From positions 32,975,954 to 33,039,953 of the forward strand of contig NC_135167.1 in assembly GCF_041146795.1 (NCBI RefSeq): a stretch of 64,000 nucleotides of DNA. Direction: 5' to 3'. Positions 20,634 to 64,000 of the stretch are shown in pieces. Position 1 is the first letter of the stretch, and the number at the start of each line of letters is the position of its first letter. The notes below the pieces were generated by a model, which had not been told where the DNA came from, searched no databases, and saw nothing but the letters and a program-made list of their open reading frames with translations. The position numbers were made by a program, and so were the translations under genes. This DNA comes from Maylandia zebra (Eukaryota > Chordata > Actinopteri > Cichliformes > Cichlidae).

Positions 20634-21099
20634 TCAGAAAGAAAGGGGAGCAAGAATACTTGATATTTGCATTCTTTAGAGAAAAGTATTTGAAAAGGCT
20701 GTCTGCTGTTTTGGATTGATGTCGTTCTCCGGAGGCTCAAAGAAGTAGGGCAGTGTCACGGTCCTTTTGGCAGCAGAAAGCTGCTGAGTGCTGGAAAGAA
20801 GCACGGCCACACCAGCTGAAATGTCTCACTGACACAGAAGCTGTTGGCCATCCTCTGTGTTGCCACTGTCTTCACCCTGCTGTTATTAAGTGTCAATAAC
20901 ATACATTTCTATGGAGCTAAGCTTGATGAGCGATGCCTTGTTGGCTGACATTTATGTCTTTGAGCGTGTGAGAAGTTTAATAATTATAAAACCACATGAG
21001 TTTGACAAATGTCCTTTTAACCGTCAGCTCATAGTGAAGCACACTGAGCCACCCGGAGCTATAATATCAAAATAGAAGCTGCTACCTTTGTCAAGAGTG
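20634..21099. other. outer part of the left arm, no gene seen
   Basis: No recognised exon or repeat. The mirror stretch is 63,535-64,000. It may include more of the KDZ element whose conserved part begins just inside. Confidence 0.35.
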
Positions 21100-22610
21100 G
21101 CTGGATCTGAGTGCATACTACTTTCAGTTATTCAAATTTTGCTGAATTTGTTCAAAGTCCTGTCTATGTGCAGAGAGTGTCTTCCAGAGGAATGGTTCTG
21201 TGGGGATTGTGATGTTCTACATCACGAACATCAGCCACTCCACAGCAGAGAAAGTGTTATTGATGTTTTTAAAGCCATTCCTCCAACCACATGTATTATT
21301 AGAGTGGACGGTCAAAATTGCACAAGATATTTCCTCATGAGATTCACTCAATTTTGGTTTTCATATGTGTCTACAGCCAGTTAGAAAGAATCTATTTAAG
21401 TGGTTTTCTCTTTCTTGGTAGCTCGCATTCTGCCAACAGTAAAGCTTTGAAACTGCTCCTGTGGGTTGCGTAAACTTCACAGTATCAGCAGGAAAAATCG
21501 TGATTTTAATCGACATTAATAGTAAACAGCAACCTGCTATTTAGGTTTCTGTGATGGATTTGAACATAGTGTGATGGAGCATGTTTTCTGCCCTTGCTGT
21601 ACAATCAGAACATGGTATTGCTTTAACAGAAGTCATCTGTGAAGGCAGTGGTGTATTATTCATGTTGTTTCTTCTTCTTTTTGGTCCAAGGACGTTATGA
21701 TGTGCACCAGGCGATACACAGATGTCAAACATGGCAGCAGCAGTGCAGCCCTGATTTAAAGGACCTGGTTAGGAGTGGATATTGGCCAGCATCTGTCAAC
21801 ATGTCTACTCTTTACACTTTAGACCTCTTGAGCTCCTTCCTGGAACTAAAAGTATTTTCTCCATGATTCTCCAGGGAAGCTTTTGCAAAACTGTTGGAGC
21901 GTGGTACTACAGTGGCTTGCAAAAGTATTCGGCCCCCTTGAACTTTTCCACATTTTGTCACATTACAGCCACAAACATGAATCAATTTTATTGGACTTCC
22001 ACGTGAAAGACCAACACAAAGTGGTGCACACGTGAGAAGTGGAAGGAAAATCATACATGATTCCAAACATTTTTTACAAATAAATAACTGCAAAGTGGGG
22101 TGTGCGTAATTATTCAGCCCCCTGACTCAATACTTTGTAGAACCACCTTTTGCTGCAGTTACAGCTGCCAGTCTTTTAGGGTCTGTCTCTACCAGCTTTG
22201 CACATCTAGAGACTGAAATCTTTGCCCATTCTTCTTTGCAAAACAGCTCCAGCTCAGTCAGATTAGATGGACAGCGTTTGTGAACAGCAGTTTCAGATCT
22301 TGCCACAGATCTGAGGGGGGCGAATACTTTTGCAAGCAACTGCAAGTGTGGGGGAAGGCTGAGTGAAGTATTTCTTTGATATTGTTTTTCAATAAGCAGA
22401 TGCAAATATTTACTCCTCTGTTATGTTTCTGTACATACAGACTGGGCGTGCCAAAAGCGATGCACTGCAGCACAGCTTTCTGGATGAGGAAGAGCAGCTG
22501 TGCTGTGATGTCAGCTTCAGCTGCCCAGCATGCACACCTGAAATGTTGGCGGTTTCAGTTGATGGTAACAGAAAGCTATATCACTTTCAGCAAAAAGAAA
22601 GGTGCTCATT
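21100..22610 (+). mobile_element. KDZ/Zisupton-type transposase relic
   Basis: Three separated pieces match transposases of the KDZ (Kyakuja-Dileera-Zisupton) group. The first, 21,151-21,303, is a cysteine cluster: MCRECLPEEWFCGDCDVLHH, then IPPTT. The second, 21,675-21,865, reads CSPDLKDLVRSGYWP and STLYTLDLLSSFLELK. The third, 22,440-22,604, reads LDEEEQLCCDVSFSCPACTP and VSVDGNRKLYHFQ. Order and strand agree with one element. Gaps, stops and a nested MITE (21,910-22,342) break it, and the catalytic core was not found. It is a dead partial copy. Confidence 0.8.
21910..22342. mobile_element. MITE nested in the KDZ relic
   Basis: Terminal inverted repeats of about 30 bp: the left begins CAGTGGCTTGCAAAAGTATT, and the right end reversed begins CAGTTGCTTGCAAAAGTATT. 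The 433-bp interior has no transposase but matches a very common fish/amphibian Tc1-like non-autonomous family. It interrupts the KDZ relic after an AFAKLLERG-type stretch. I could not define a target duplication. Confidence 0.85.
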
Positions 22611-23010
22611 GTTGATGTTCTTTGTGTTTGTGTTTTTATGCACATACTTAAAAAAGCCTTCCATGGTTAGACTTTATTGTTTCTCTGATGTTGCTCTGAT
22701 GACCGTGACTTTTTTGATGCCGTTTTTTTGTTGAAACCAACTGTTGTCACCCTCTGCTGCTCAGTGTGCTGGCTGTTTTCTCGGGAATCTCAACCACAAG
22801 AAAGTTTATACGAACGAAGCTAAAAAACCTGTGACAGTTTGTGAAACGTCATTAGCAGCAGTGAAATAAGTTAGTTAGTGAAATGATAGAGGCTATTTTA
22901 TGCTGGAAAAATTCTTCCAGCACAAAGTGGCCCAATAAACGGAATTTTTTAATACAGAAATACATCTAATGATAAAAAGCAGAGAATTCATTGTCTGTTT
23001 TCCATTGCAG

Positions 23011-61623: not shown

Positions 61624-62023
61624 CTGCAATGGAAAACAGACAATGAATTCTCTGCTTTTTATCATTAGATGTATTTCTGTATTAAAAAATTCCGTTTATT
61701 GGGCCACTTTGTGCTGGAAGAATTTTTCCAGCATAAAATAGCCTCTATCATTTCACTAACTAACTTATTTCACTGCTGCTAATGACGTTTCACAAACTGT
61801 CACAGGTTTTTTAGCTTCGTTCGTATAAACTTTCTTGTGGTTGAGATTCCCGAGAAAACAGCCAGCACACTGAGCAGCAGAGGGTGACAACAGTTGGTTT
61901 CAACAAAAAAACGGCATCAAAAAAGTCACGGTCATCAGAGCAACATCAGAGAAACAATAAAGTCTAACCATGGAAGGCTTTTTTAAGTATGTGCATAAAA
62001 ACACAAACACAAAGAACATCAAC

Positions 62024-63534
62024 AATGAGCACCTTTCTTTTTGCTGAAAGTGATATAGCTTTCTGTTACCATCAACTGAAACCGCCAACATTTCAGGTGT
62101 GCATGCTGGGCAGCTGAAGCTGACATCACAGCACAGCTGCTCTTCCTCATCCAGAAAGCTGTGCTGCAGTGCATCGCTTTTGGCACGCCCAGTCTGTATG
62201 TACAGAAACATAACAGAGGAGTAAATATTTGCATCTGCTTATTGAAAAACAATATCAAAGAAATACTTCACTCAGCCTTCCCCCACACTTGCAGTTGCTT
62301 GCAAAAGTATTCGCCCCCCTCAGATCTGTGGCAAGATCTGAAACTGCTGTTCACAAACGCTGTCCATCTAATCTGACTGAGCTGGAGCTGTTTTGCAAAG
62401 AAGAATGGGCAAAGATTTCAGTCTCTAGATGTGCAAAGCTGGTAGAGACAGACCCTAAAAGACTGGCAGCTGTAACTGCAGCAAAAGGTGGTTCTACAAA
62501 GTATTGAGTCAGGGGGCTGAATAATTACGCACACCCCACTTTGCAGTTATTTATTTGTAAAAAATGTTTGGAATCATGTATGATTTTCCTTCCACTTCTC
62601 ACGTGTGCACCACTTTGTGTTGGTCTTTCACGTGGAAGTCCAATAAAATTGATTCATGTTTGTGGCTGTAATGTGACAAAATGTGGAAAAGTTCAAGGGG
62701 GCCGAATACTTTTGCAAGCCACTGTAGTACCACGCTCCAACAGTTTTGCAAAAGCTTCCCTGGAGAATCATGGAGAAAATACTTTTAGTTCCAGGAAGGA
62801 GCTCAAGAGGTCTAAAGTGTAAAGAGTAGACATGTTGACAGATGCTGGCCAATATCCACTCCTAACCAGGTCCTTTAAATCAGGGCTGCACTGCTGCTGC
62901 CATGTTTGACATCTGTGTATCGCCTGGTGCACATCATAACGTCCTTGGACCAAAAAGAAGAAGAAACAACATGAATAATACACCACTGCCTTCACAGATG
63001 ACTTCTGTTAAAGCAATACCATGTTCTGATTGTACAGCAAGGGCAGAAAACATGCTCCATCACACTATGTTCAAATCCATCACAGAAACCTAAATAGCAG
63101 GTTGCTGTTTACTATTAATGTCGATTAAAATCACGATTTTTCCTGCTGATACTGTGAAGTTTACGCAACCCACAGGAGCAGTTTCAAAGCTTTACTGTTG
63201 GCAGAATGCGAGCTACCAAGAAAGAGAAAACCACTTAAATAGATTCTTTCTAACTGGCTGTAGACACATATGAAAACCAAAATTGAGTGAATCTCATGAG
63301 GAAATATCTTGTGCAATTTTGACCGTCCACTCTAATAATACATGTGGTTGGAGGAATGGCTTTAAAAACATCAATAACACTTTCTCTGCTGTGGAGTGGC
63401 TGATGTTCGTGATGTAGAACATCACAATCCCCACAGAACCATTCCTCTGGAAGACACTCTCTGCACATAGACAGGACTTTGAACAAATTCAGCAAAATTT
63501 GAATAACTGAAAGTAGTATGCACTCAGATCCAGC
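62024..63534 (-). mobile_element. KDZ/Zisupton-type transposase relic, right-arm copy
   Basis: Mirror image of the 21,100-22,610 element, with the same cysteine cluster (63,331-63,483), central piece (62,769-62,959) and CPAC piece (62,030-62,194), and the same nested MITE. Its identity with the left copy shows that the decay came before the inverted duplication. Confidence 0.8.
62292..62724. mobile_element. MITE nested in the KDZ relic, right-arm copy
   Basis: Mirror image of 21,910-22,342, with the same 433-bp length and terminal repeats. Confidence 0.85.
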
Positions 63535-64000
63535 CACTCTTGACAAAGGTAGCAGCTTCTATTTTGATATTATAGCTCCGGGTGGCTCAGTGTGCTTCAC
63601 TATGAGCTGACGGTTAAAAGGACATTTGTCAAACTCATGTGGTTTTATAATTATTAAACTTCTCACACGCTCAAAGACATAAATGTCAGCCAACAAGGCA
63701 TCGCTCATCAAGCTTAGCTCCATAGAAATGTATGTTATTGACACTTAATAACAGCAGGGTGAAGACAGTGGCAACACAGAGGATGGCCAACAGCTTCTGT
63801 GTCAGTGAGACATTTCAGCTGGTGTGGCCGTGCTTCTTTCCAGCACTCAGCAGCTTTCTGCTGCCAAAAGGACCGTGACACTGCCCTACTTCTTTGAGCC
63901 TCCGGAGAACGACATCAATCCAAAACAGCAGACAGCCTTTTCAAATACTTTTCTCTAAAGAATGCAAATATCAAGTATTCTTGCTCCCCTTTCTTTCTGA

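Follow-up and report, generated by a model that had tools for sequence, protein, structure and literature searches.

Architecture of the palindrome

The window analysed in this study, that is the whole stretch of 64,000 nucleotides of Maylandia zebra contig NC_135167.1 (positions 32,975,954 to 33,039,953 of the forward strand), contains a large DNA palindrome, whose arms carry gene remnants, transposon remnants and tRNA genes. Comparison of the window with itself gave an ungapped inverted match between a left arm at 20,634-41,619 (plus strand) and the reverse complement of a right arm at 43,015-64,000 (minus strand), in which 20,982 of 20,986 columns are identical (99.98%). The two arms pair with a coordinate sum of 84,634 throughout, the runner-up among the 70 sums tried giving 6,031 matches, and the pairing breaks off sharply at 41,620/43,014, leaving inner edges at 41,619 and 43,015. 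Between these edges lies an asymmetric spacer of 1,395 bp (41,620-43,014), with no N in its sequence. The outer limit at 20,634 is fixed solely by the end of the window at 64,000, up to which the right arm continues to match, and the arm length is to be read as at least 20,986 bp. Large DNA palindromes are usually delimited as two inverted arms, commonly of at least 8 kb and at least 99% identity, and the present arms exceed both values. The original prediction had described arms recurring as reverse complements with this constant sum, a 1,395-bp asymmetric spacer and a right arm still matching at the window edge, such that the true size would be larger. The alignment bears out each of these statements, and the palindrome is thus confirmed as a real and correctly measured feature of the sequence.

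The arms differ by four substitutions and no insertion or deletion, despite six homopolymers of 8-9 bases in the arm. Read on the left-arm strand, the left and right bases are A at 24,083 and G at 60,551, T at 24,271 and G at 60,363, A at 28,430 and G at 56,204, and A at 33,583 and G at 51,051; at each of the four sites the left arm thus has A or T where the right arm has G. The arm-to-arm divergence is 1.9e-4 per site (0.019%), with a 95% range of 0.5e-4 to 4.9e-4.

Gene remnants and other features of the arms

A matrin-type teleost gene, 5'-truncated and internally deleted, occupies 33,508-41,494 on the plus strand of the left arm, with its final codon 125 bp from the inner edge. Its mirror in the right arm (43,140-51,126, minus strand), which differs by one base, lies tail to tail with it. 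The family is uncharacterised and is called matrin-type, or ZNF638-like, after the names of its relatives. Scoring of the 7,987 candidates with the most shared words listed 69 matches, the best being Oreochromis niloticus LOC109200983 and LOC109197904, with other relatives in bass, killifish, medaka and more. Relative to the tilapia protein P0121, the copy is without residues 1-423 (best match there with an E-value of 0.54) and 495-556. Residues 687-747 are also unmatched, and since one predicted tilapia form of this family skips residues 589-755, that gap alone need not mean decay. Five pieces of the exon alignments with P0121 show 92-100% identity; the remainder score less, with a minimum of 46%, chiefly where the alignment enters intron or deleted sequence. 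In two exons, the Maylandia zebra relative P0189 (LOC101463648), which sits on a 45.6-Mb contig, agrees at 60 of 60 residues as against 58 of 60 for tilapia P0121 and P0124, tilapia P0177 being left out of this comparison as it has a different predicted splice form there. Pfam recognised no domain in P0121 and a sub-threshold zinc finger alone in P0124, P0177 and P0189. The three tilapia proteins are encoded on short contigs (47,186, 33,629 and 39,791 bp as a set), which suggests that tilapia has several copies of the family and that these are difficult to assemble.

Decayed exons of glutathione synthetase, corresponding to residues 282-347, 348-372 and 444-477 of P0003, are found at 23,008-23,872 on the plus strand, with their mirror at 60,762-61,626 on the minus strand. 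Among the best 120 of 400 matches, the exon at 23,008-23,205 is closest (61 of 66 residues) to Haplochromis burtoni and an Astatotilapia/Maylandia cluster, the latter comprising 31 sequences at 90% identity and possibly including tilapia copies; next among the same matches are the American cichlid Archocentrus (57 of 65 residues) and other teleosts. Judged by these relatives, the DNA belongs to an African cichlid and more likely to a haplochromine; the first matrin-type matches had suggested Oreochromini, against which the better fit of the exons shared with Maylandia zebra counts, on the strength of two residues. A filamin-repeat fragment at 24,696-24,815 (plus strand; exact mirror 59,819-59,938) scores 24.5 bits, below the Pfam cut-off of 26.9. 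A fragment of the TRC8 N-terminal domain on the minus strand is well over its cut-off at 74.8 bits, with its best stretch at 25,820-25,978 (profile positions 361-413 of 494; mirror by coordinate sum 58,656-58,814); the TRC8 match also has a second stretch. Each arm further carries a THAP-domain piece, which falls below the Pfam cut-off on rescanning, and the left arm gave a weak HMG-box match as well. Beyond the filamin, TRC8, THAP and HMG-box pieces, the further Pfam yield in the left arm was confined to transposon domains.

No intact protein-coding gene could be demonstrated in the arms by six-frame Pfam scans of the left arm (open reading frames alone for 28,400-30,700), a search by which genes without a domain are missed; the copies of the glutathione synthetase and matrin-type genes have suffered truncation or deletion. 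The host-like genes that had been predicted in the arms are accordingly present as glutathione synthetase, filamin, TRC8 and matrin-type sequences, all of them partial. The tRNA genes predicted there do recur, two in each arm, namely tRNA-Ser(CGA) at 31,209-31,292 and tRNA-Gly(TCC) at 31,867-31,938 on the minus strand of the left arm, and tRNA-Gly(TCC) at 52,696-52,767 and tRNA-Ser(CGA) at 53,342-53,425 on the plus strand of the right arm.

Each arm also holds a Gypsy-type retrotransposon remnant with RNase H and integrase (28,597-30,599, minus strand; exact mirror 54,035-56,037) plus other transposon remnants, amongst them a KDZ-transposase-associated CxC3 domain (21,672-21,902, plus strand; exact mirror 62,732-62,962). 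At the edge of the Gypsy remnant, a 153-bp direct repeat of 98% likeness (30,569-30,721 and 32,647-32,799, mirrored in the right arm) brackets about 1.9 kb with both tRNA genes of the arm. This arrangement resembles either an insertion whose target duplication was long or a tandem duplication of small size.

Spacer sequence

The spacer carries two repeat units that are about 80% identical, at 42,283-42,543 and 42,733-43,004. The second unit resembles a copy at 18,325-18,474, and the similarity reaches the last base of the spacer at 43,014. We had considered this end as a truncation marking the new junction, a reading that was dropped after shuffled controls, as the similarity of the relatives ends there too; beyond 43,014 the two relatives share nothing significant (score 17 against a shuffled 95% level of 19). 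A self-complementary word of 10 bases close to the right junction (43,000) carries little weight, as 1-43,014 contains 36 words of this kind. For the repeat at 41,620-41,985, neither terminal repeats nor a target duplication was found on testing, and a 23-base piece of it had no match in a scan of viral contigs.

An older inverted repeat as internal control

Outside the palindrome, at 5,444-7,049 on the minus strand, lies an older inverted copy of 23,055-24,684 with its own glutathione synthetase remnant, preserved in two blocks. The block 23,772-24,684 is 97.9% identical to the inverted copy at 5,444-6,353 (16 substitutions and 3 gaps in 913 columns), and the block 23,055-23,332 is 99.3% identical to that at 6,773-7,049 (1 substitution and 1 gap in 278 columns). 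The arm copy of glutathione synthetase retains residues 282-372 and 444-477 and the older outside copy residues 298-347 and 438-477; both are broken, each in its own way. As this older repeat has diverged, inverted repeats in this region are not automatically homogenised, and the simplest reading of its divergence beside 4 differences in 20,986 columns is that the palindrome is much younger than the older duplication. The palindrome is therefore probably young. With a substitution rate of about 3.5e-9 per site and generation, a divergence of 1.9e-4 would correspond to about 27,000 generations in the absence of conversion, to be taken as a guide figure only. The older copy also polarises two of the four arm differences, those at 24,083 and 24,271, where it shares the left-arm base and the right arm is derived.

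Proposed origin of the palindrome

The best-documented cases of large palindromes with near-identical arms come from sex chromosomes and from genomes that are unstable or cancerous. The combination of arms of at least 20,986 bp at 99.98% identity with a 1,395-bp spacer may be accounted for by recent fold-back and copying of a broken chromosome end, an explanation to which we give about an even chance. A double-strand break would be followed by resection of the broken end, the resected end would fold back within about 1.4 kb and pair with itself, and replication of the folded end would leave the loop as the spacer. The anatomy fits such a course in its asymmetric spacer, sharp inner edges and near-identical arms. 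Amongst human inverted duplications, 21 of 21 sequenced junctions are reported with a spacer, of 766-70,466 bp and a median of 3,428 bp, and the authors likewise invoke a broken end that undergoes resection, folds back to pair with itself and is then copied (PMC3907307). The spacer described here falls within that human range by its length. The human fold-back duplications thus share inverted arms and a spacer with the present case, in which the spacer is toward the small end, however in the table rows considered they are megabases long and adjoin terminal deletions (PMC3907307), whereas the arms here contain degenerate DNA. We infer that the join is present in the living genome and that the arms owe their identity to the youth of the duplication, not to gene conversion.

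Since every protein-coding host gene recognised in the arms is a fragment, a protein-coding role for the palindrome as such is unlikely. It would instead act on chromosome structure, by adding copies of two tRNA genes and by offering a substrate on which further inversions and breaks could occur. In cichlid DNA, a palindrome composed of broken genes would be an example of fold-back copying in a place where there seems to be no protein-coding gene to preserve.

Several observations weigh against a fold-back origin. The shared pattern of the four differences, A or T in the left arm against G in the right, would also suit GC-biased gene conversion. The finding that the right arm is derived at both polarised sites is weak, as the chance that both fall on the same arm is one half. 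The stop of the spacer repeat at the right junction may be the natural end of the repeat, in which case the direction of copying is not fixed by it. Lastly, the filamin piece, the rescanned THAP piece and two of the three kinesin pieces of the left flank (see below) score under their Pfam cut-offs.

An assembly error, by which all or the outer part of one arm was written a second time in reverse orientation, could have arisen from haplotype copies joined head to head, from a chimeric read or from the assembler turning back along an inverted repeat that is genuine but shorter, and so extending it. A duplicated consensus would be expected to show such near-identity, and false duplications are common in vertebrate assemblies, amounting to 4-16% of sequence in three previous assemblies, with one class that stems from read errors and requires no haplotype divergence (PMC9516828). 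The main class, that of false haplotype copies, is however relatively divergent, and a gap between the copies is a listed mark of false duplication (PMC9516828), whereas the palindrome shows a divergence of 0.019% and no N. Palindromes generated by whole-genome amplification have been described in reads averaging 5.5-8.9 kb (PMC6218980), as against more than 43 kb here. Four substitutions with no insertion or deletion are also unlike the usual consensus error of long reads. Moreover, two of the differences are found as far as 17.3-17.5 kb out from the inner edge, at sites where the third copy shows the right-arm base to be derived, so that the right arm is not a plain reprint of the left. With substitutions only, no gap and polarised variants 17 kb out, an assembly error is disfavoured, and we consider it unlikely.

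Alternatively, the palindrome may be older, its arms having stayed nearly identical through gene conversion between them, as happens on the Y and X chromosomes of mammals. At 99.98%, the arms are as alike as those of human Y palindromes, which exceed 99.9% (PMC3723533), and the change from A or T on the left to G on the right at all four differences has the direction favoured by GC-biased conversion, however four differences are too few for a test of GC bias. The older inverted repeat in the same window has not been homogenised, and with no intact protein-coding gene demonstrable in the arms there is no evident function to preserve. We regard this explanation as improbable; the original prediction had held that gene conversion keeps the arms alike, a process that is not shown and, with the older inverted repeat at 97.9-99.3%, not needed. 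For the ampliconic sex-chromosome setting that it also mentioned there was likewise no positive evidence, no protein-coding gene of the arms having been shown intact. Ampliconic palindromes of the mammalian Y and X, such as human P6 (PMC3723533), resemble the present one in their large inverted arms of more than 99.9% identity and differ from it in that no intact or testis-type gene was shown in the arms here. Another route to a recent inverted duplication, for example sister-chromatid (U-type) fusion or a template switch at the replication fork, followed by further rearrangement, would likewise yield young and near-identical inverted arms, and both are discussed for the human cases (PMC3907307). 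U-type fusion is stated to leave no spacer (PMC3907307), as opposed to the 1,395 bp observed, while a template switch at the fork may still apply; overall, such routes appear quite improbable to us.

Mosaic of gene fragments and chromosomal setting

The left flank of the palindrome contains three kinesin pieces on the minus strand, which we take to be kinesin-3, at 3,328-3,432, 5,182-5,271 and 16,556-16,660; the last alone is above its Pfam cut-off. Between them lie a CIP2A fragment (12,146-12,442, plus strand) and a piece of a HECT ligase with UBE3A as nearest solved relative (15,418-15,627, minus strand), and the region is therefore a mosaic and not a single gene. Pieces of at least seven genes (kinesin, glutathione synthetase, CIP2A, HECT ligase, filamin, TRC8 and matrin-type) occur on both strands within 43 kb. 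The closest analogy for this setting appears to be a B chromosome of cichlids, or some other region in which rearrangement is rapid and recombination poor.

The supernumerary chromosome suggested in the original prediction is plausible, the sequence being cichlid-like DNA full of gene fragments, as published for such chromosomes (PMC6316868). Each of the Malawi cichlid B datasets contains 516-2,030 genes and gene fragments; the blocks map to every chromosome, how they are arranged on the B is not known according to the authors, and roughly half of the B sequence is estimated to turn over per million years (PMC6316868). In Nile tilapia, a putative B chromosome and a repeat-rich LG3 have been described (PMC7563666), and expansion of LG3 by transposons and segmental duplications has been proposed (PMC6447674). 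Cichlid B chromosomes (PMC6316868, PMC7563666) and the present region have in common cichlid DNA with partial genes of several sources, here partial pieces of at least seven genes. They differ in that the published blocks were inferred from read depth (PMC6316868). The patchwork would fit a cichlid B chromosome, and a heterochromatic or sex-linked region would fit too.

It is tempting to go further and view the window as a resolved piece of a cichlid B chromosome, such chromosomes growing as mosaics of gene fragments are folded back and copied into giant palindromes. This proposal is tentative, and we hold it to be possible with the balance against it. If true, giant palindromes would be a feature of B-chromosome structure that is invisible to read-depth studies. 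The interest of the palindrome would rise above the usual only with read support and a location on a B or sex chromosome.

The string 'palindrom' is absent from the main texts of PMC6316868, PMC7563666, PMC6447674, PMC6934658 and PMC7509943, which deal with B chromosomes of cichlids and other species and with cichlid genomes, and no report of fish, cichlid or tilapia palindromes was recognised by title or by the start of the abstract, which is no proof of absence. A figure legend in PMC7509943 does name inverted duplications on the B chromosomes of other species. The main text of PMC6316868 names none of the six gene terms sought, its gene lists being in the supplement. A grasshopper B chromosome is likewise reported to carry CIP2A (PMC5377258), and the occurrence of this gene both there and here may be coincidence.

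A few further features were noted in the left flank. A leucine-rich-repeat reading of 12,701-13,324 was unsupported and has been left out of the count of gene pieces. A remnant of a Tc1/Sleeping Beauty-type transposase lies on the plus strand at 14,546-15,124, beside the HECT fragment, and a second Gypsy-type remnant is present at the left end of the window (738-2,098, with reverse transcriptase and RNase H at 1,073-2,098). Finally, a 73-bp inverted match of 95% likeness connects 17,802-17,874 in the left flank with 25,149-25,221 in the left arm and is perhaps a dispersed repeat.

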